Shown in pieces: positions 4,725-64,000 of a DNA stretch of 64,000 bases. Within the stretch, counting starts at the first letter, position 1, and the number at the start of each line of letters is the position of its first letter. A program made the translations under genes and the position numbers. Origin of the DNA: Crocinitomicaceae bacterium (GTDB lineage Bacteria > Bacteroidota > Bacteroidia > Flavobacteriales_D > Crocinitomicaceae); the NCBI GenBank assembly GCA_021740745.1, contig JAIOZF010000003.1, positions 1 to 64,000 of the forward strand, written 5' to 3'. Under the pieces are notes generated by a model that ran no database searches, was not told where the DNA came from, and saw nothing but the letters and a program-made list of their open reading frames with translations.

Positions 4725-7700
4725 ATGACATTAACAGAATTATCGATAAAACGTCCTTCCTTTATTATTGTAATTTTTACAATTCTGATTGGAGGAGGTT
4801 TAATAAGTTACAATCAACTGAGTTATGAATTACTTCCTGACTTCTCCCCTCCTATTTTAACGGTTACGACTACTTATCCAGGTGCGTCACCGGCAACTGT
4901 TGAAAGTCAGGTAGCAAAACCATTGGAAGATGCCTTAAGCGGACTTGAAAACATTGTGGAGGTAACAGCCTTTTCCTTGGATAACGCATCAATTGTTTTG
5001 CTTGAATTTAAAGCATCTGCAAATATTGACAAGTCCTTGGAAGACGCGCAACGGAAGGTAAACAACGTTCTCAATAAACTCCCAGAAGGAGCAAACACGC
5101 CTGTCATTGCCAAAATTGAGCCCAATGCATCGCCTGTTTTACAAGTAAGTGCCGTTGCGAAGAACATGGACGATCGTGATTTCATGGAATTGATGGATGA
5201 TCAAATTCTCCCGCAAATCAAGCAAACAAAAGGTGTAGCCGATGTTGCAGTTATTGGTGGCGAAAAACGCGAATTCAGGGTCAATGTTGACAAGGAAAAA
5301 ATGAAAATGTATGGCTTATCGATGGCTGGCATCAATCAAGCAATTTCCTCTTCAAACGTAGAATTTCCGACAGGTAAATTAAAGGATAGCGAAGAACAAA
5401 TGACGGTTCGATTGGCAGGTAAATTTAAAACCGTTGCCGATCTTCAAAACCTCATCGTTTCGGCGACTGGAACCTCTGTTGTGCGATTATCAGATGTAGC
5501 AGATGTGGAAGATGGTTCTATTGATCAAATTACCGTTTCTCGATTCAATGGAGCGAATGGAATTGGCCTTAGAATTACGAAACAAAGTGATGCCAATGCA
5601 GTTGACATGTCCCGTGCAACAAAAGAAAATTTTAAGCAAATTGAGAAAAAGTACAAAAAGCAAGGTGTTGAATTTACCGTTGCAACTGACACTTCAATTC
5701 CTACAATTGAATCAGTCGATGCGGTAATCCATGATCTTGAATTAGCGGTTTTATTGGTTGCAGCTGTAATGCTTTTGTTCTTGCACAGTTTGAGAAATGC
5801 ATTTATTGTACTAATTGCTATTCCAGCATCCCTGATTTCCACTTTTGTTGCCATGTACATGTTAGGGTACACACTTAACTTGATGACACTTTTAGCAATG
5901 TCTCTAGTTATTGGAATTTTGGTGGATGACTCAATCGTTGTATTGGAAAACATCTATCGCCACTTACAAATGGGCAAAGACCGTCGTCAAGCTGCCTTGG
6001 AAGGACGAAACGAGATTGGATTTACAGCACTTGCAATTACATTAGTGGATGTCGTTGTATTCTCACCAGTTATGTTTATCGAAGGTACAATTTCCGACAT
6101 TTTGAGACAATTCTCAGCCGTCGTGGTTGTATCAACATTAATGTCCCTTTTTGTGTGTTTCACACTTACACCTTGGTTGGCATCGCGATTTGCCAAAGAT
6201 GTTAAATTGAATCCGAAAAATCCGCTTCAAGCGATTTTAATTTGGTTTGAAAAGCGAGTTGACATTTTTACAAATCAATACGTGAAATTGGTAGCGTGGT
6301 CTTTGCGTCACAAAATTATTGCTGGTGTAACAGTTTTAGTTATTTTCTTCGCAAGTATGGCTTCCATGGGATTAGGAATTGTGGGACAAGAGTTCGTTGC
6401 ACAAGGAGATCAAGGAAAGTTCATGATTAAGTTGAAATACGACAAAAGTGCCACTTTCGAGGAAAACAATACCACTACGCTAGAAATTGAGCAAATGATT
6501 TTGGCTCAAAAAGAGATGGTTGACATTGTTTTTGCCAATGTCGGTGGACCTAGTTCGGGTATGGGGGCAGCTTCGTTCGGTTCAGAAAATAAATCTGAAT
6601 TAACAGTAAAAATGAAGCCTGGAAAGCAAAATGAAATTCCTACGATTAAATATATGAATGCCATTCGTAATGAAATTGAGGCAAAATATCCTGGAATTGA
6701 GGTAAAAGCCTTGAACATTGGAATGGTTGAATCAGAGGAGGCGCCAATTGAAATCTTTCTTTCATCGGAGGATACTGATTTGTTGATGAAAGAAGCGAAA
6801 CGTTTGAAGGATGCCATTTTGGAAATAAAAGGGGCCAAAGATCCAACGATTTCAACAGATGACATTTCTCCTGAGGTTCGTATTGAATTAAATCGAGAAA
6901 AAATGGGTCAGCTTGGACTTCCAATCGCAGTAATTGGAATGCAACTTCAAAACGCACTAACAGGGAATGACGATTCGCAATTCGATGATAAAGGTCAAGA
7001 GTACGACATTCGTGTGATGATTGATAAATTTGATCGTAAAAACATTGACGATATCAAATCAATGACATTCACTGCAAATGATGGGAAACAAGTTCGTTTG
7101 AGTGAATTTGCCGAAGTAACAATTGATAATGCAAATGGATCATTAGAGCGTAAAAACAGAATTCCAAACACCACCATTAGAGCTTATGTTTTAGGAACTG
7201 CTTCTGGGAATGTTGCAACAGGAATTATTGACTATTTAGAGGAAAATCCCTTGAATGAAAATGTGCGTATGTTGTGGGGTGGTGAAGTAAAACGTCAAAA
7301 CGAATCGATGGGTGCCTTAGGAATGGCGATGGGAATTGGTTTAATACTCGTTTACCTCATCATGGTTGCCTTGTACGACAACTTCGTTTATCCTTTTGTA
7401 GTATTATTTTCCATTCTTGTTGCACTCGTTGGAGCTATACTTGCCTTAAACTTAACTTCTTCAAGTATGGGAATCTTTACCATGTTGGGAATGTTAATGC
7501 TCTTAGGATTAGTGGCCAAGAATGCTATTTTGATAGTCGACTTTACCAATCATTTAAAAGCCGAAGGAAAATCTACTTACAATGCATTATTAGAATCTGT
7601 TCGAGAAAGAATGCGTCCAATCTTAATGACAACCATTGCGATGGTAATTGGTATGATTCCGATTGCCACAGCGACTGGATCAGGTGCCGAATGGAAAAAC

Positions 7701-20629: not shown

Positions 20630-21916
20630 ATGAGTGAAATTGCAAAAATTGAATTAGGAGGTCAGGTATTTGAGTTTCCAGTAATCGAAGGTACAGAAAA
20701 GGAAAAAGCGATTGATATCAGTAAGCTTCGCGACATGACTGGTTATATTACTTTAGACACAGGTTACAAAAATACTGGTGCGACAAAGAGTGGTATTACC
20801 TTTTTAGATGGTGAACTTGGTATTCTTCACTACCGCGGTTATTCAATTGAACAATTAGCTGATAAAGCTTCATTCCTAGAAGTTGCTTATTTATTGATTT
20901 ACGGAGAATTGCCAACTCAAGCTGAATTAGATGCTTTTATTTCAAGTATTACAAAGCACACGCTGATTCATGAAGACATGAAGCAATTTTTTGAAGCATA
21001 CCCCGCAAAAGCCCATCCAATGGGTGTATTAGCTTCAATGGTTTGTTCATTATCTACATTCTACCCAGAGTCCTTAGACCCAAACAGATCTAAAGAAGCA
21101 AAAGATTTAACAATCCACCGTCTTTTAGCTAAGTTGCCAACGTTGGCTGCGTGGTCATATAAAAATGCAATGCGTCACCCATTTATGTATCCTAGAAATG
21201 AATTTAGCTATTGCGAAAATTTCTTACACATGATGTTTGCAATGCCAACTGAAGATTACAAAGTTGATCCAGTTGTTGTAAGCGCATTAAACAAACTGTT
21301 AATTCTTCACGCTGACCACGAGCAAAACTGTTCAACTTCAACAGTGCGTATCGTTGGATCATCTCAGTCAAATTTATATTCATCAATTTCTGCTGGTATT
21401 TCTGCACTTTGGGGTCCACTTCACGGTGGTGCCAACCAAGAGGTAATCGAAATGCTTGAGCAAATCCACCAAGATGGTGGCGATGTTGATAAGTGGGTTG
21501 CAAAAGCGAAAGACAAAGAAGATCCTTTCCGTTTGATGGGCTTTGGACACAGAGTTTATAAAAACTTTGACCCACGTGCTACAATCATCAAAAAGGCATG
21601 TGATGATATTTTGGAAAAATTGAACATCAATGATCCAATGTTAGCTATTGCGAAACGTTTAGAACAAGTAGCATTAGAAGACGAGTACTTTAAATCGCGT
21701 AACTTGTATCCGAATGTAGATTTCTACTCAGGAATCATATACAAAGCATTGGGTATTCCAACAGAAATGTTTACTGTTATGTTCTCTATCGGACGTTTAC
21801 CAGGATGGATTGCACAATGGAAAGAAATGACAGAAAATAAAGAGCCAATTGGTCGTCCACGTCAAATATATGTTGGCGCTACACCAAGAGACTACGTTGA
21901 TATTTCAAAAAGATAA
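20630..21916 (+). CDS. gltA: citrate synthase (type II)
   Basis: A 428-residue citrate synthase that condenses acetyl-CoA with oxaloacetate. The extra N-terminal beta domain (KIELGGQVFEFPVIEGTE, TLDTGYKNTGATKSGITFLD) marks the hexameric, NADH-sensitive type II enzymes. Catalytic motifs LHADHEQNCSTSTVR, GPLHGGANQEV and GFGHRVYKNFDPRA are intact. It is monocistronic, with 148 nt of AT-rich upstream DNA containing a small AACTAA/TTAGTT inverted repeat at 20561-20578 and a near-consensus TAATTTAG box, and a strong terminator downstream. Confidence 0.96.
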   Translation: MSEIAKIELGGQVFEFPVIEGTEKEKAIDISKLRDMTGYITLDTGYKNTGATKSGITFLDGELGILHYRGYSIEQLADKASFLEVAYLLIYGELPTQAELDAFISSITKHTLIHEDMKQFFEAYPAKAHPMGVLASMVCSLSTFYPESLDPNRSKEAKDLTIHRLLAKLPTLAAWSYKNAMRHPFMYPRNEFSYCENFLHMMFAMPTEDYKVDPVVVSALNKLLILHADHEQNCSTSTVRIVGSSQSNLYSSISAGISALWGPLHGGANQEVIEMLEQIHQDGGDVDKWVAKAKDKEDPFRLMGFGHRVYKNFDPRATIIKKACDDILEKLNINDPMLAIAKRLEQVALEDEYFKSRNLYPNVDFYSGIIYKALGIPTEMFTVMFSIGRLPGWIAQWKEMTENKEPIGRPRQIYVGATPRDYVDISKR

Positions 21917-56370: not shown

Positions 56371-57861
56371 ATGAAAAAGAAATCAGTTTCACTAATAATC
56401 ACAATCCTTACCTTAGGATTAACAAGCTATGGGCAAGTGCAAATAGGTAATAATATTGATGGAGAAAATCCAGGAGACCTATCAGGTCATTCAGTAGCCA
56501 TTTCGGCTAATGGAAACATAGTCGCAATTGGTGCTATTGAAAATAATGACGGTGGAAGTAGATCGGGTCATGTGAGGGTATATGAAAATGCAGACGGTAC
56601 TTGGACACAAATAGGCGAAGATATTGCCGGAGAGGCTGTGGACGATCGGTCAGGATGGTCATTGGCTCTATCTGCAGATGGTGGTATAGTTGCCATTGGT
56701 TCTGATTTAAATAATTCATGGAGGGGTCAAGTGGAGGTGTATGAAAATATAGGAGGCACCTGGACACAAATAGGTGAAGATATTGAAGGTGAAAACTTTC
56801 AAGATATATCAGCAACAAGTATATCATTATCAAACGATGGGAGTATCATAGCTATTGGTGCGCCACGTAGCGATGGCACTGCAAATAATTCTGGACATGT
56901 TAGAGTTTTTGAAAATTCGGGTGGATCATGGATACAAATAGGTCAGGATATTGACGGTGTGCAGGAACAAGGTCGACTAGGTAATTCGGTAGCACTAAAT
57001 GGTGAAGGGAACATTGTTGCTATTGGTGCCTCTCAAAATGACGAGAATGGCACAAATACAGGTGAGGTTAAAGTCTACGAAAACATAAATGGTACTTGGA
57101 CTCAGCTAGGTGGAGACATCAATGGTGTAGTCGATTTTGAGGATTCGGGTTATAGAGTTGCGTTATCCGAAGTTGGAGATATAGTAGCTATTAGTTCAGC
57201 GAGCAGCAATGCCAATGGCCTGCATTCGGGTCATGTACGAATTTTTGAATACCTGGGAGGCGTCTGGACACAAATAGGTGAAGATATAAATGGGGAAGCA
57301 AGTGAAGATTATTTTGGTTGGTCGATGGCGCTGTCCGCAAGCGGAAACATTATAGCCATTGGCTCGCTATGGAATGATAACAATGGAAGTGACGCAGGTA
57401 ATGTTAGAATTTTTCAAAATCTAAGTGGAGTTTGGACACAAATAGGTGAGAGTATTAACGGAGAGGCTGCTAATGATAATTCAGGTTTTTCGGTAGATAT
57501 TTCTGATGATGGAAGTATCGTGGCTATTGGTGCCAAAGCAAATGATGGAAATGGTGACTTTTCAGGGCATGTAAGAGTGTTTGATCTAACGCAATCTGTT
57601 CTGTCAATTCCCACAATTGATATAGAAACCACATTAAGTTTATTTCCAAATCCATCAAGGGATTTCATAAAAATACAATTAGAGGCAGATCAGATTGAAA
57701 AGATAGAACTATATAGTCTGACAGGTAAACTAATTTTCAAAACGGATTTGAATTCTAATATATTCATTTTAGATACCGCCAATTATCCTTCCGGAACCTA
57801 TCTCTTGAAAGTTTTTAGTCAAAATCATGGCTGCATAAATACAAAGTTTATAAAGGAATAA
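56371..57861 (+). CDS. T9SS-sorted protein with seven propeller-type repeats
   Basis: A 496-residue secreted protein: signal peptide (MKKKSVSLIITILTLGLTSY), then seven repeats of about 55 residues (about 22-405) each built like WTQIGEDIAGEAVDDRSGWS followed by SADGGIVAIGS and a GHVRVYEN-type strand, and a type A sorting domain (LSLFPNPSRDFIKIQLEADQ to the end). Seven similar repeats suggest one seven-bladed beta-propeller, with FG-GAP-like spacing. It is probably exposed on the surface or released; ligand is unknown. It is closely framed by inverted repeats and lies next to an IS, so it may belong to a mobile or cassette-like unit. Confidence 0.85.
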   Translation: MKKKSVSLIITILTLGLTSYGQVQIGNNIDGENPGDLSGHSVAISANGNIVAIGAIENNDGGSRSGHVRVYENADGTWTQIGEDIAGEAVDDRSGWSLALSADGGIVAIGSDLNNSWRGQVEVYENIGGTWTQIGEDIEGENFQDISATSISLSNDGSIIAIGAPRSDGTANNSGHVRVFENSGGSWIQIGQDIDGVQEQGRLGNSVALNGEGNIVAIGASQNDENGTNTGEVKVYENINGTWTQLGGDINGVVDFEDSGYRVALSEVGDIVAISSASSNANGLHSGHVRIFEYLGGVWTQIGEDINGEASEDYFGWSMALSASGNIIAIGSLWNDNNGSDAGNVRIFQNLSGVWTQIGESINGEAANDNSGFSVDISDDGSIVAIGAKANDGNGDFSGHVRVFDLTQSVLSIPTIDIETTLSLFPNPSRDFIKIQLEADQIEKIELYSLTGKLIFKTDLNSNIFILDTANYPSGTYLLKVFSQNHGCINTKFIKE

Positions 57862-57998: not shown

Positions 57999-59687
57999 GT
58001 CTAAAAACCCTTCTCTTTTCCACATCAACTTTTTCATAAAATCATCCTTTTTCTCATTGTGAAAATGGTGACTTTTTGTATCTTTCTGTATGAAATTTAT
58101 TCAAGGAAAAGATCGGAATCAAACAGAGTTTTTCTGTTTGGATCAAGCTGTTTCAGATGATAACGAAGTAAGATTGATCGATTTGTTCGTTGGTGCAATA
58201 AGAGTTTCTGATTATGGTTTTAAAATGGAGTTCATTGAAAATGGTCGTCCGGCTTATCATCCCTCAGATTTGTTGAAGTTGTTTATTTACGGGTATTTGA
58301 ACCGGATTCGTTCATCTAGACATTTAGAAAAGGAATGTAAGCGCAACATTGAACTAATGTGGTTAATGCGCGGGCTCACTCCGGATCACAACACTATTGC
58401 CAATTTCAGAAAAGACAATCCAAAAGCCATTCGAAAAGTGTTTCATGCGACGGTTTCTCTTGCCAAGAACTTTGATTTAATCGGTGGTAAATTACTTGCA
58501 GGTGATGGAACCAAGTTGCGCGCTCAAAACTCAAAGAAAAACAACTTCAACGAAAAGAAGATTGAAAGACATATTGCTTACATTGATGACAAGCTCAATG
58601 AATACAGCACTATTCTTGCCAGCGAAGACAAAGATTTAAGTGAGGAAAAAAAGCAAGAAATCAACGATAAAATCGATAAACACCAACAGCACAAAGACAA
58701 GTACGAAGAATTTAAAAAGCAACTCGATGAAACTGGAGCAGTTCAAATTTCAACTTCAGATCCCGATAGTAGACAAATGATTGTGCGCAACAATATCACT
58801 GAAGTTGCCTATAATGTTCAGTCGACAGTTGATGCTAAACACAACATTCCAATCGACTTCAAAGTCACCAATAAAAACGATTCCAAAGCCATGGGCGCGA
58901 TGGTTCGCCGAGCAAAAACCATTTTGGGGCACACTGATTTTACAGCCATTTTTGACAAGGGATACCACACTGGAACTGAGTTCGATTATGCCCATAAGCA
59001 AGGTGTTGAGGTGATTGTGGCTTTTCCTGATGTTGCTTCGCATGCACCAGATATTTCATTTGATGTCGAACATTTTGATTACAACAAACAACGCGATGAA
59101 TATACTTGTCCGGCAGGAGAATTACTCACCACAAACGGACGCTGGTACAACAAAGCAAGCGGAAAAACCATCAACCGTGTCAAACACTACAAAACAAAAT
59201 CTTGTTTAACATGCAGCCTTTTTGAAAAATGCACCCGAAACAAAACAGGACGCTTCATTGAGCGATCGGAACACATGGATTTGATTGATGCCAACAAAAA
59301 AAGAGTACAACAAAACATGGATGTCTATCGAAAACGCCAGGCAATCGTTGAACATCCTTTTGGTGTAATAAAAAGACAATGGGATTTTTACTACATCATA
59401 ACAAAAAAGTCAATAAAACATGCTTCGGCAGATGTAGGATTAATCTTTACCTGTTACAATTTGCGCCGGATATTTAATTTGATTGGCAAAAATGAGTTGA
59501 AAGAGTACCTGAAAGGGCTTGCTTCCATGTTTTTGAATTTAATCGGGCATTTTAAGCTCAATAGACGAATGTTTGGTATTGATTTTTTCGAAGGTACATT
59601 TTCAAAGTGGCAACATTTGGCTTCTTTAAATGAATTATATTTGGGTAAAAAACAGTTCGGATTTGAATCTAAATGGGTTTTTATACG
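57999..59687 (+). mobile_element. IS1182-like insertion sequence
   Basis: Terminal repeats GTCTAAAAACCC (57999-58010) and GGGTTTTTATAC (59675-59686) match in 11/12 positions when inverted. AACT occurs just outside the left end (57995-57998) and again at 59688-59691, possibly a target duplication but short enough to be chance. One transposase frame fills the interior. Boundaries are tentative, because the transposase stop at 59709 lies 22 nt beyond the right repeat. Confidence 0.65.
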
Positions 59688-59709
59688 AACTGCCGTTAGG
59701 TGTTATTAG
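58090..59709 (+). CDS. IS1182-family transposase
   Basis: A 539-residue DDE transposase. The N-terminal DUF772-type domain (RPAYHPSDLLKLFIYGYLNR) and the DDE core are complete: D near residue 139 (LLAGDGTKLRA), D near 290 (TAIFDKGYHTG), E near 420 (AIVEHPFGVIKRQWDF), with a Lys/Glu-rich linker at 160-215 and a small Cys cluster (CLTCSLFEKCTRNK). There is no frameshift. The last residues (RTAVRCY) are encoded outside the predicted right terminal repeat. A near -7 box (TATCTTTC at 58079-58086) ends 3 nt before the ATG. Confidence 0.9.
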   Translation: MKFIQGKDRNQTEFFCLDQAVSDDNEVRLIDLFVGAIRVSDYGFKMEFIENGRPAYHPSDLLKLFIYGYLNRIRSSRHLEKECKRNIELMWLMRGLTPDHNTIANFRKDNPKAIRKVFHATVSLAKNFDLIGGKLLAGDGTKLRAQNSKKNNFNEKKIERHIAYIDDKLNEYSTILASEDKDLSEEKKQEINDKIDKHQQHKDKYEEFKKQLDETGAVQISTSDPDSRQMIVRNNITEVAYNVQSTVDAKHNIPIDFKVTNKNDSKAMGAMVRRAKTILGHTDFTAIFDKGYHTGTEFDYAHKQGVEVIVAFPDVASHAPDISFDVEHFDYNKQRDEYTCPAGELLTTNGRWYNKASGKTINRVKHYKTKSCLTCSLFEKCTRNKTGRFIERSEHMDLIDANKKRVQQNMDVYRKRQAIVEHPFGVIKRQWDFYYIITKKSIKHASADVGLIFTCYNLRRIFNLIGKNELKEYLKGLASMFLNLIGHFKLNRRMFGIDFFEGTFSKWQHLASLNELYLGKKQFGFESKWVFIRTAVRCY

Positions 59710-59810: not shown

Positions 59811-61661
59811 TCAGATGATATTCTCTATTCTCACAGTTGTCCCTTTTTCAGTAGATGTTAAAACGAATTCCGCACCCATTTCTTCGGAACGTTGTTTCAT
59901 GTTTTGAATTCCATAACCTGGAGAATAGTTTGACAGGTCGAATCCTATACCATTGTCTTTAATGATAAAACTATTCCTGCTGAATTTTATGTCAATGCGC
60001 GTTGCTTTTGAATATTTCATCGCGTTATTAATTGCTTCCTGAGCAATTCGATATAGATGCAGTGCGTTAGATGAAATAATCTCTTCGTTCGGATCAATTT
60101 CTAATTCAGTGCACATCTCAAGTTTTCCCTCACTGCGTTTCTCAGCAAACAAAGATATTTTCTCTAGCAAATCACCTTTTTGGATCGCGTCTTGTCGGAT
60201 TGACCAGATCGTTTCACGCAACAATCCTGATGCCTCCCTACTAAGTGTAGCAAGTTCGTTGAATTCATTTTTTTCCTCAATGTGCGGCGTGGAAGCGGCC
60301 TTAATATCGAGTTTGGAAGTAATCAATGTGAGTTCTGCACCAATATTGTCGTGCAAGTCACGAGAGATGCGCATGCGCTCGAATTCAAGATCCTTTAGGT
60401 TTTTTACTTCGAGCTTTCTTTTTTCAGAAATTCTTTTCAGCTGAATAGAAAACGCTGCTAGCAGGACTACCATAAACAAAAGCCCAAGAACCCAGATCCA
60501 GTTTCTGAATTCGTTAGTCTTCAATCGTTCCTCCAGAAAAGCCTTCTCTTTTTCAGTGGTTTTATACTTCACCGACAATTCGTTGAACGATCGATTGTTT
60601 TTTTCGCTGTAAATTGAATCCTGATAGTCTATATAATTATCGAAGTACTGATCGGCCTTTTCGTAGTTTCCTTTTAGGTGCTCGAGACGGGTAAGACCTT
60701 TGTATGCATTTCGCAATTCGATGTAAGAATTTATCTCTTTGGCCAAAATGAGAGATTTTCTAAGATTTGATTCACCTTGTTCAAATTCCTTTAGGTCAAG
60801 ATAGCATTGGCCAATATTGTTAAGAAGCGGTGTGAGGGCGGATTTACTTTTTAATTGTTCAGCAATTAGTTTCGCTTTCAAATAGTAGTTAAGTCCCTCC
60901 TGGATTTTACCTTGATTTCTAAAATTCACCCCGATATTTTGATAGATGGTACATAAAAAATGAAGGTCTTTATCCTTATCGATGTATTCAAGACAATTGA
61001 AATACATATCATTAGCTTGTTGAAAATCATTCATTTTCATGTAAAGAACACCTAGATTCCCATAGACTGAAACCAATATGAGAGGGTCATTCAGCAATAA
61101 TCCTGATTTCAGAGCTTTCTGGTAATAGTTTTCTGCTTCTTTGAAATTTTGGGTTTTTTCATAAATAGCTCCTATGTTGATTTGGAGTTGCGTTACCTGA
61201 GGTAGCGCCTCGAATGATTCAAATATGTCGAGTGCGATTAGGTTGTCATTCAGTGCCTTTTTGAATTCACCTTTTTCGAAGTGAGCCAAGGCTAGTTTAT
61301 TGTATACTTTGGCCACTAGAATTTTTTCACCAGATTTCTTTGCAAGTGGCATTGCTTTTTTCATTAATAACAGGACGCTGTCGTACACGCCTTTGTTATA
61401 GTAAGAAATACTCCAATCACTTAGAACTTGAGCTTGTAGAGCAGGATCTTTTAACTTCGAAGCCTCGGCAAATGCCTTTTTTCCAAAAATGATCCCTTTG
61501 TTAACATCTGAGGAGGAATAATAGAAAGAAAGGTCGGCTAATGCCTGAACCTTTTCCTTGCCTTTAAGTTGATATACTTTTTGTTCAAGATCTTTCATCT
61601 GAGAAAAACTATCCAAACCAATTACTAATAAACCGATTATAAGTAATATTCTTACCTTCAT
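59811..61661 (-). CDS. TPR-containing sensor histidine kinase (HisKA_3 type)
   Basis: A 616-residue kinase: signal peptide (MKVRILLIIGLLVIGLDSFS), about seven TPR units in the periplasmic part (about 40-335; YNKLALAHFEKGEFKKALND is one), a coiled segment, one membrane helix (about 388-408), an H-box RISRDLHDNIGAELT (His about 437) and a HATPase domain (AQEAINNAMKYSK, KDNGIGFDL, GYGIQNMKQRSEEMGAEF). This NarL-pairing kinase class is common in Bacteroidota. It is 1 nt downstream of the response-regulator gene, so the two form a cognate pair. The stimulus is unknown. Confidence 0.92.
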   Translation of the reverse strand: MKVRILLIIGLLVIGLDSFSQMKDLEQKVYQLKGKEKVQALADLSFYYSSSDVNKGIIFGKKAFAEASKLKDPALQAQVLSDWSISYYNKGVYDSVLLLMKKAMPLAKKSGEKILVAKVYNKLALAHFEKGEFKKALNDNLIALDIFESFEALPQVTQLQINIGAIYEKTQNFKEAENYYQKALKSGLLLNDPLILVSVYGNLGVLYMKMNDFQQANDMYFNCLEYIDKDKDLHFLCTIYQNIGVNFRNQGKIQEGLNYYLKAKLIAEQLKSKSALTPLLNNIGQCYLDLKEFEQGESNLRKSLILAKEINSYIELRNAYKGLTRLEHLKGNYEKADQYFDNYIDYQDSIYSEKNNRSFNELSVKYKTTEKEKAFLEERLKTNEFRNWIWVLGLLFMVVLLAAFSIQLKRISEKRKLEVKNLKDLEFERMRISRDLHDNIGAELTLITSKLDIKAASTPHIEEKNEFNELATLSREASGLLRETIWSIRQDAIQKGDLLEKISLFAEKRSEGKLEMCTELEIDPNEEIISSNALHLYRIAQEAINNAMKYSKATRIDIKFSRNSFIIKDNGIGFDLSNYSPGYGIQNMKQRSEEMGAEFVLTSTEKGTTVRIENII

Positions 61662-61662
61662 A

Positions 61663-62310
61663 TTAAAGAATTCCTCCCTTTTGAGCCTTATCAATCGCCC
61701 CTGTGCGGTTATTTACTTCTAATTTACGGTAAATATTCTCAACATGTTTTCGGACAGTACCGTAACTGATGAATAAATTGTCGGCAATCTGCTCGTAGCT
61801 GAGGCCTTTGGACAACTGCTCCAGCACCTGTATCTCACGTTCAGTCAAGTGATAATCAAACTGATCCTGAACATTTTGGGATGGTGAAGACTTCCGTATT
61901 AGCTGCAAAGCTTTTTTTGCAATCATTGCACTCATGGGCATTCCTCCCTCTAACGCTTCAAAAATAGATCGGTGGATCTTTTGGGGAACCTCATCTTTGA
62001 GTAAATAGCCGCATGCTCCCGACAACATAGCATCAAATAAATTTTGTTCGTCATCAAATACCGAAGACATAACAATCTTTATCTGTGGCCATCGCTGACT
62101 AATCAGATTTGTTGCTTCTATACCATTCATTTCAGGCATATTGATATCCATAATAATCACATCCACATTATGGTCTCGCTCCAATAGCTTAATTATTTCT
62201 GCTCCATTAGGCGCAATGAATTTCAATTTAAAATCGGGCGAAAGCAGGATTTTTGCTTTTAAGGCTTCAGCTATGCGAGTAATGTCTTCGACTATGGCAA
62301 TTTGTATCAT
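61663..62310 (-). CDS. NarL/LuxR-family response regulator
   Basis: A 215-residue regulator. The receiver domain has the acidic pair at Glu8/Asp9, the phosphoacceptor Asp55 in VIIMDINMPEMNG, and YLLKDEVP with the conserved lysine. A LuxR-type HTH follows (LTEREIQVLEQLSKGLSYEQ, IADNLFISYGTVRKHVENIY). It is transcribed ahead of the kinase gene, with only 1 nt between them. The perfect palindrome at 62353-62374 lies 43 nt upstream of its start, 20 bp from its -7 box, and is a strong candidate for its own binding site. Confidence 0.95.
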   Translation of the reverse strand: MIQIAIVEDITRIAEALKAKILLSPDFKLKFIAPNGAEIIKLLERDHNVDVIIMDINMPEMNGIEATNLISQRWPQIKIVMSSVFDDEQNLFDAMLSGACGYLLKDEVPQKIHRSIFEALEGGMPMSAMIAKKALQLIRKSSPSQNVQDQFDYHLTEREIQVLEQLSKGLSYEQIADNLFISYGTVRKHVENIYRKLEVNNRTGAIDKAQKGGIL

Positions 62311-62324
62311 GAGATTCTTTTCGA

Positions 62325-62332
62325 CAAAAATA
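62325..62332 (-). promoter_or_regulatory. candidate -7 element for the response-regulator/kinase operon
   Basis: On the minus strand the sequence is TATTTTTG, an exact TAnnTTTG match, 20 nt beyond the left edge of the palindrome at 62353. Confidence 0.55.
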
Positions 62333-62352
62333 GTTTAGCATCCTATTTGCGA

Positions 62353-62374
62353 AAATACGCAACATTGCGTATTT
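62353..62374. promoter_or_regulatory. bidirectional operator candidate (10-bp inverted repeat) for the response regulator
   Basis: AAATACGCAA and TTGCGTATTT are perfect 10-bp arms around CA. The site lies exactly 20 nt from -7-like boxes on both sides and recurs at 63895-63916 with 18/22 identity, again 20 nt from a -7-like box. Confidence 0.65.
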
Positions 62375-62394
62375 CGTGTTATTAACAGCCAAAG

Positions 62395-62402
62395 TAATTT
62401 CG
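62395..62402 (+). promoter_or_regulatory. near-consensus -7 element for the BNR-repeat protein gene
   Basis: TAATTTCG differs from TAnnTTTG by one base and lies 20 nt after the palindrome. A weak -7 box with an operator in the -33 position suits an activated promoter. Confidence 0.5.
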
Positions 62403-62449
62403 TTCTGTACTTTTTAAACCCAAAGTATGCAAAAACAAAAATAAACAAT

Positions 62450-63682
62450 ATGAAAAAAGTTCTAATTATTTTTACCACTGTAATACTCTCTAACCTTTCT
62501 AAAGCACAGTGGTCACAGGTCAATAACGGTCTGCAGGATCTATCCCTTGGTGTGCGCTCAATTGCTGGGCACAATGGTAAAATGTACACAGGCACATTGA
62601 GTGGATTTAAATTGTATAAAAGTTCCGATTATGGGAATAACTGGACGGAAATTTCAACTCCGGTGATTAGTGGAATACCTGTTTCAACTCATTCTTACGG
62701 AAACCGTCTCTTCTTCGGGTTAAATGTTTCATGGGACGATCTATACTATACCGATGATGATGGAGCAACCTGGCAAGTCGCTCAAGGAGGTCCGCAAAGT
62801 TCTGTGGTGAGAGGTTTTTTCACATTATCTAGCACGCTCTTCTGCTATACAAGTAATTTAGGTGTCTACAGATCAACGGATGGCGGAACTAATTGGGCGC
62901 AGATCAATAATGGTTTAACCACTCTTAATGTTGTGAAAATAGAGGCTATTGGTAGTCGATTGTTCGCTTGTACCATCAATGGAGGTGTTTATATGTCGGA
63001 TGATAACGGTGATACCTGGATTCAATCCAATAATGGTATTTTATCAAGTCACCTTGCAGGTTATCAATTATTTCGTTTGGGATCTGACCTCTATTATATG
63101 GATCAATCTACAGGAAGGTATAAAAGTACGGACCAAGGAAATAGCTGGAATTCGATCACCCAACCTTCATTTTGGGGGATTAAACCCAGAATAGTTTATC
63201 GGAATGCCCAATCAGGCAATATCTATATGAAAAATGCTTTTGGAGTATTTGGTGAAATAGACAGCCTTTTTGTCTCTTATAATGAGGGTGCAAACTGGAC
63301 GAACATCACCGAGAATCTTCCACAGGCATTTAATGAAGCAGAATTCACCGAATACAACGGATATGTTTTCTATGCGTTTGATATTCTTGTTGCTGGAGAA
63401 GGTGTTTATCGCAGAGGGGATTTTAATTCACTTTCAGAAAAAGAGGAATACGATATAGAGATTTATCCAAACCCCGCAAGTGATAAAATCAATTTGAACT
63501 CTGATCAACCTCTGCAATCAGTCGCGATGATCGATATTTCAGGTAGAACGGTCCTTGTTAGAAGTTTGAATTTCAACAAAAGCTGCTCATTGGAACTTGC
63601 TGAACTCCCAAAAGGATATTATGTACTCAAGTTGACTACCTCCAGTGGAAATCAAGTCAGTAAAAAAGTAATCATCGAGTAG
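62450..63682 (+). CDS. T9SS-sorted BNR/sialidase-like repeat protein
   Basis: A 410-residue secreted protein: signal peptide (MKKVLIIFTTVILSNLSKAQ), then propeller-type repeats with Asp-box features (KLYKSSDYGNNWTEI, YYTDDDGATWQVA, YRSTDGGTNWAQINNG, YMSDDNGDTWIQSNNG, YKSTDQGNSWNSI, FVSYNEGANWTNI), and a type A sorting domain (IEIYPNPASDKINLNS to NQVSKKVIIE). The six or so S/T-x-D-x-G-x-x-W motifs mark BNR blades, as in sialidase-like and YCF48-like proteins; no catalytic sialidase residues are evident, so a binding role is more likely. It faces the two-component operon and shares its operator region. Confidence 0.87.
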   Translation: MKKVLIIFTTVILSNLSKAQWSQVNNGLQDLSLGVRSIAGHNGKMYTGTLSGFKLYKSSDYGNNWTEISTPVISGIPVSTHSYGNRLFFGLNVSWDDLYYTDDDGATWQVAQGGPQSSVVRGFFTLSSTLFCYTSNLGVYRSTDGGTNWAQINNGLTTLNVVKIEAIGSRLFACTINGGVYMSDDNGDTWIQSNNGILSSHLAGYQLFRLGSDLYYMDQSTGRYKSTDQGNSWNSITQPSFWGIKPRIVYRNAQSGNIYMKNAFGVFGEIDSLFVSYNEGANWTNITENLPQAFNEAEFTEYNGYVFYAFDILVAGEGVYRRGDFNSLSEKEEYDIEIYPNPASDKINLNSDQPLQSVAMIDISGRTVLVRSLNFNKSCSLELAELPKGYYVLKLTTSSGNQVSKKVIIE

Positions 63683-63738
63683 TCGGAGACAACCTGAATT
63701 ATAATAAATCAGAAATCAATCCTAAGTTTTAGCTTCTG

Positions 63739-63780
63739 ACGGGCACACGAATCAATTATTGGTCGTGTGCCCGTTTCATT
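63739..63780 (+). terminator. rho-independent terminator after the BNR-repeat gene
   Basis: ACGGGCACACGA and TCGTGTGCCCGT form a perfect 12-bp stem with a 12-nt loop, followed by a T-rich stretch. Confidence 0.82.
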
Positions 63781-63894
63781 TTTCATCAGATAAGGACCTG
63801 TATCTTGCTTCACACAAGAATAGACATATTTCCATTTCATTTTGTGTATGCATTATGGAACTTATTGGCGAATAGAATTGGTAGTAGTTATGAA

Positions 63895-63916
63895 ATATAC
63901 GAAACTCTGCGTATTT
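63895..63916. promoter_or_regulatory. second copy of the response-regulator operator candidate
   Basis: Matches the palindrome at 62353-62374 in 18 of 22 positions, including an intact GCGTATTT half-site, and lies 52 nt before the ATG at 63969. Confidence 0.6.
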
Positions 63917-63936
63917 ACCCTTTACTAAAGAAATCG

Positions 63937-63944
63937 GAGCTTTG
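63937..63944 (+). promoter_or_regulatory. near-consensus -7 element before the truncated gene
   Basis: GAGCTTTG differs from TAnnTTTG by one base and lies exactly 20 nt after the operator copy at 63895-63916. Confidence 0.4.
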
Positions 63945-63968: not shown

Positions 63969-64000
63969 ATGAAAAAAGTAATCTCTGTTTTAAGTATAGT
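63969..64000 (+). CDS. exported protein, cut by window edge
   Basis: An ATG at 63969 opens a frame reading MKKVISVLSI that runs off the window. The first residues look like the beginning of a signal peptide and match the start of the neighbouring BNR-repeat gene (MKKV). The same operator and -7-like geometry precedes it. Function cannot be told from ten codons; another T9SS or surface protein is a reasonable guess. Confidence 0.55.
   Translation, partial: MKKVISVLSI

Follow-up and report, generated by a model that had tools for sequence, protein, structure and literature searches.

In Escherichia coli, a single 7-2-7 site immediately 5′ of the −35 element is enough for NarL to activate transcription; a studied example, which abuts that element, is centered at −44.5 (PMC7419079). 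In Porphyromonas gingivalis the FimS/FimR system, composed of a TPR-containing kinase and an activating response regulator, controls genes for surface structures, and the TPR repeats of FimS have been taken to suggest that the signal is a protein (PMC5706477). As for promoters, the TAnnTTTG box of Flavobacterium psychrophilum occupies positions −12 to −5 (PMC9723704). The DNA sites of two-component regulators from the Bacteroidota are, as far as we have found, little described. Here we analyze a 64,000-nucleotide stretch of DNA from a member of the Crocinitomicaceae (hereafter the window), part of a 79.5-kb contig in a draft genome (3.03 Mb in 137 contigs, 96% complete). On the evidence of sequence comparison, we propose that two palindromes in the window are probably operators for the adjacent NarL-type regulator, from which it would activate its own operon, a gene for a BNR-repeat protein, and an operon for outer-membrane proteins.

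The gene for the regulator is on the minus strand (61663–62310). Its inferred product (215 residues) consists of a receiver domain (PF00072, E = 8e-21) followed by a GerE helix-turn-helix domain (PF00196, E = 3e-19) with the recognition helix TVRKHVENIY, as expected for a response regulator of the NarL/LuxR type. The genome has no other close gene of its type; after it, the best match is 32% identical. Also on the minus strand (59811–61661) is a gene for a FimS-like sensor kinase of 616 residues, which has an N-terminal signal or transmembrane sequence, TPR repeats, a single internal transmembrane segment (about residues 388–407), and HisKA_3 and HATPase_c domains, and so has all of the features of TPR-containing HisKA_3 kinases. 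The first predicted target (62450–63682, plus strand) encodes a BNR/sortilin-repeat protein of 410 residues with the sorting tail of cargo of the type IX secretion system (T9SS) (Por_Secre_tail; PF18962, E = 3e-14; TIGR04183 above cut-off), its signal peptide having been recognized by eye only. The second is an operon on the plus strand headed by NX284, which starts at 63969, extends past the end of the window at 64000 to contig position 64823, and is followed by genes for proteins of about 266, 175, and perhaps 182 residues. None of the genes of this operon matched a Pfam or NCBIfam family above cut-off. The product of NX284 (284 residues) is predicted to be an outer-membrane β-barrel: its structure model is all-β and resembles such barrels (mean pLDDT 82). 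When the model was compared with known structures by Foldseek, all of the matches were weak and were to a variety of outer-membrane barrels (best E = 1e-3; most TM-scores 0.2–0.4), and hence no function can be named for NX284.

The first palindrome, operator 1 (AAATACGCAACATTGCGTATTT, 22 bp, 62353–62374), is symmetric and lies between two divergent gene starts, such that one site could serve two promoters. Its 16-bp core, TACGCAA-CA-TTGCGTA (62356–62371), is laid out 7-2-7 like the sites of the NarL family, a geometry that comparison with other loci shows to be conserved. Operator 2 (ATATACGAAACTCTGCGTATTT, plus strand, 63895–63916; core TACGAAACTCTGCGTA, 63898–63913) is an imperfect copy that matches operator 1 at 18 of 22 positions. 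Each of three predicted promoters has a −7 box at a distance of exactly 23 nt, measured from the end of the core to the start of the box. The box of the response-regulator promoter, TATTTTTG (62325–62332, minus strand), and that of the BNR-gene promoter, TAATTTCG (62395–62402, plus strand), are placed in this way with respect to core 1, and the box of the NX284 promoter, GAGCTTTG (63937–63944, plus strand), with respect to core 2. The first matches TAnnTTTG at six of six positions and the other two at five of six each; measured against the composite of core, spacer, and box, the three sites have zero, one, and two mismatches, respectively. A previous reading of this DNA from sequence only had placed the palindrome and its 18/22 copy correctly to the base, and the distance of 20 nt from the 22-mer that it reported for all three boxes was verified. 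No second occurrence of AAATACGCAACATTGCGTATTT with three or fewer mismatches was found in the window, and 100 shuffles likewise gave no matches. The bare core with one mismatch does arise in the window by chance (an extra match is present at 21686; shuffle mean 0.84), and hence statistics from a single window are not decisive on their own; it is the comparative evidence that decides.

We therefore turn to homologous regulators. The collection drew on 240 same-family genomes and on genomes of GTDB; a consensus was derived from their upstream regions and afterwards tested. The arrangement TACGnnAnnTnnCGTA-N22/23-TAnnTTTG was present 5′ of 38 of the 41 homologous regulator genes that lead a transcript (scored as the core, a 22- or 23-nt spacer, and the box at 12/16 positions or better), as compared to a mean of 1.05 in Markov shuffles. 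At loci in which a gene on the same strand lies less than 60 nt upstream, the site was found directly before the regulator gene in 11 of 53 cases, and the operator often precedes an earlier gene of the operon. Intergenic cores with no more than one mismatch numbered 63 in the homologous GTDB loci, as against zero to one for controls made by permuting the palindrome at unchanged composition. The consensus of 79 deduplicated sites, AAATACGnnAnnTnnCGTATT(T/G), is the same 22-mer that had been picked out in the window. Among the 64 sites with a box, a gap of 23 nt was the best in 46 sites and one of 22 nt in eight (together 54/64). The closest orthologs (genera g14 and g18) have weaker left half-sites, with 7–8 of 10 core positions matched. 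Across the Bacteroidota set the regulators show almost no variation in their recognition helix, T(V/I/A)RKH(V/I)EN (a different helix is found in the Firmicutes homologs), in keeping with a conserved operator. Loss of the motif from orthologous loci that keep the two-component system, and a lack of further copies 5′ of genes, had been named in advance as tests; the motif is kept at those loci, and copies precede genes in relatives. Comparison across genomes has shown that the operator–spacing–box arrangement is, at the level of sequence, common to a large clade of such regulators in the Bacteroidota.

How might the regulator act? Judging from its domains, the TPR kinase would sense a signal in the envelope and phosphorylate the regulator, a dimer of which, from its family and from the conservation of the site, is expected to bind the core as a 7-2-7 inverted repeat. 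If TAnnTTTG is at −12 to −5, then the core would begin at about −51 and end at about −36, directly beside the −33 region, with its center near −43.5. Given that NarL activates from sites beside the −35 element, we infer that the regulator bound at this position would activate RNA polymerase; with the start sites as predicted, an operator that abuts the −35/−33 element at a fixed spacing has the geometry of a class II-type activator. Operator 1 would thereby drive, in divergent directions, the regulator–kinase operon (positive autoregulation) and the gene for the secreted BNR protein, and operator 2 would control the adjoining operon for outer-membrane proteins. An unlikely alternative retains both the operator and the regulator but has the regulator repress the three promoters, including its own, until a signal relieves the repression. 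Regulators do commonly repress their own genes, and the operator touches the −33 region, but about 23 nt separate the end of the site from the −7 box, the core promoter is left uncovered, the spacing is as tightly fixed among the 64 sites as contact with polymerase would require, and it is activation that NarL brings about from this position (PMC7419079).

Activation by the regulator would be exerted at target genes as well as at its own, and NX284 allowed the operator to be followed at a target. Homologs of NX284 were found in 10 genomes of the family, in 11 copies, and the operator was present at N22/23 from a box directly 5′ of 10 of the 11, a test that for most copies is independent of the derivation of the consensus. 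The exception (in G086) has a degenerate site, TAGGTAAGATTACGGA, in a genome without a regulator at the threshold used. In four genomes the NX284 homolog and the regulator are on different contigs; since NX284 homologs that are unlinked from the regulator keep the operator, the operator tracks the target gene itself and is more than a feature of the regulator's neighborhood. The order NX266–NX284–operator–regulator is kept in Crocinitomix-labeled MAGs (L075 and L076, which match the same-family loci L050 and L049) and in a pond MAG. Two loci, L077 and L078, resemble the window in having a single operator for two divergent promoters, whereas in the Crocinitomix loci each promoter has an operator of its own.

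Besides regulators, the products encoded behind the operator mostly look like exported proteins, lipoproteins, outer-membrane proteins, or proteins with T9SS tails. In the wider set the targets mostly have signal-like N-termini, as judged from the N-terminal sequence and not by a signal-peptide predictor, and include lipoproteins of about 160–180 residues, outer-membrane-like proteins of about 235 residues, secreted proteins of about 483 residues, BNR proteins, and short membrane proteins encoded at the head of kinase operons. In eight loci from Flavobacterium relatives, a secreted protein of about 483 residues (NNVEITGTSVSG...ISWENSWN) is encoded behind the operator. The BNR target of the window has an echo further afield: in Phaeocystidibacter and in a Flavobacteriia MAG, both distantly related (L133 and L136, at about position 5650), a regulator gene, an operator, and a gene for a BNR-type protein of about 430 residues follow one another.

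The distribution of the site bears on whether it belongs to this regulator or to another. When at most one mismatch was allowed in the composite, sites were found in 32 of the 49 family genomes that have the regulator and in 27 of the 191 that lack it, 240 genomes in all (Fisher p = 4.5e-12, a value that is too small because the genomes are related and their relatedness is uncorrected). By our own tally, the regulator-bearing genomes had 80 sites versus 18 matches to the reversed control, and the regulator-free genomes had 30 versus about 40; the 27 regulator-free genomes with a site are at about the level of the reversed control. A general promoter element of the phylum was also considered and rejected, as 198 genomes from across the phylum showed no excess over the reversed control, and the arrangement hence belongs to certain lineages. 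It is very improbable, we believe, that the palindromes are bound by some other LuxR-type protein or a global factor and lie near the pair by chance. The genome does have several distant LuxR-type paralogs, and similar 22-mers occur at another spacing in regulator-free genomes of the same genus, but the occurrence of the site tracks that of this regulator clade, the site precedes nearly all of the transcript-leading homologs, and in the genome as a whole only this locus carries it. The 22-mers in question, which resemble AAATACGTnAnnATACGTATTT, are conserved in four genomes of the genus (at 1501–1522 in the loci that we collected), 5′ of a putative secreted-protein gene. Their GATATTTG-like box is much further away, and we did not count them as members because they lack the 23-nt spacing; they are perhaps the site of another regulator.

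Attribution of the sites to the adjacent regulator is in keeping with the earlier proposal that the regulator governs its own gene and a small number of genes for secreted proteins, which gains support from the sites before homologous regulators, the co-occurrence with the regulator, and the exported look of the targets. As to the extent of control in this genome, a search for the composite core-N23-box with two or fewer mismatches returned five matches, namely, the three sites described here and two that are inside open reading frames (contigs C20 and C137). A relaxed 22-bp pattern, again with up to two mismatches, returned the two sites here and four others, of which those on C33, C83, and C88 are inside open reading frames or at the end of one, and that on C65 is intergenic but poorly symmetric and at the level of the reversed control. 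A genome-wide regulon was rejected, composites with three or fewer mismatches being no commoner than in the reversed control (49 versus 75). With only the three promoters here and matches within open reading frames elsewhere, the predicted regulon is local in this genome: two operators and three promoters in one variable segment of about 15 kb. The term regulon used in the sequence-only reading therefore applies to this one locus, and the whole-genome scan for composites does not bear it out for a wider set of genes.

The segment has a variable setting. In four genomes of the same genus acnA is followed directly by rpsF, whereas here about 15 kb separates the two (from 56072 in the window to about 71309 on the contig, C54). 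Within this segment are genes for a T9SS FG-GAP protein, a transposase, both two-component proteins, the BNR protein, and a second aconitase (acnB), along with the barrel operon. The FG-GAP_2 repeat protein, which has a T9SS sorting tail, is encoded at 56371–57861, adjoining acnA, and the transposase gene (DUF772 and DDE_Tnp_1_6; 58090–59709) is just 3′ of the kinase gene. At the thresholds used, neither the regulator nor NX284 was found in the other 25 genomes of the genus. The segment was likely gained by transfer; loss elsewhere could also give this pattern. Despite the nearby transposase gene and the variability of the segment within the genus, it is scarcely credible that the repeat arose as a palindrome by chance or that it represents a terminator or the end of a mobile element, given that operator 1 lies between divergent gene starts and not at gene ends and that many genera preserve core, spacing, and box to a degree far beyond that in shuffles.

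A 16-base operator at a fixed distance from a −7 box would provide a simple rule by which the targets of a large group of TPR-kinase/NarL-type systems could be predicted, and it suggests that what these systems control in common is surface and secreted proteins. We raise, tentatively, a broader possibility: the RKH(V/I)EN clade of these Bacteroidota systems may keep one operator and one promoter distance while kinases and targets diversify, in which case targets would be predictable from sequence alone and paralogous systems within a single cell might read each other's sites. No description of this operator was found in the open-access papers searched, and the arrangement is apparently undescribed so far.

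Finally, we compare the locus with its described relatives. By sequence, the best solved relative of the regulator is VraR (5hev, E = 1e-27), one of the VraR/LiaR-type regulators of the Firmicutes; the Firmicutes homologs that we collected differ in having the recognition helix TVKNYISSIY and no such operator directly upstream. With E. coli NarL, as studied at the yeaR–yoaG and ogt promoters, the system shares a GerE-domain response regulator, inverted heptamers 2 bp apart, and a promoter layout in which a single site beside the −35 element suffices for activation by NarL (PMC7419079). It differs from NarL in its half-site, which is TACGCAA and not the NarL heptamer, in having a −33/−7 promoter of the Bacteroidota kind, and in having a TPR kinase and not NarX or NarQ; the regulator scores 116.9 bits against the curated NarL model, for which the cut-off is 250, and does not qualify as a NarL ortholog. 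Similarly, the kinase matches the FimS equivalog model (E = 1.6e-18) with 66.4 bits, as against a cut-off of 600, and does not qualify as an ortholog of FimS. No description of a FimR operator of this type was found in the open-access literature. What the system shares with FimS/FimR of P. gingivalis is the combination of a TPR-containing kinase and a response regulator, and where it departs is in its predicted targets, which are a T9SS-secreted BNR protein and β-barrels rather than fimbriae.
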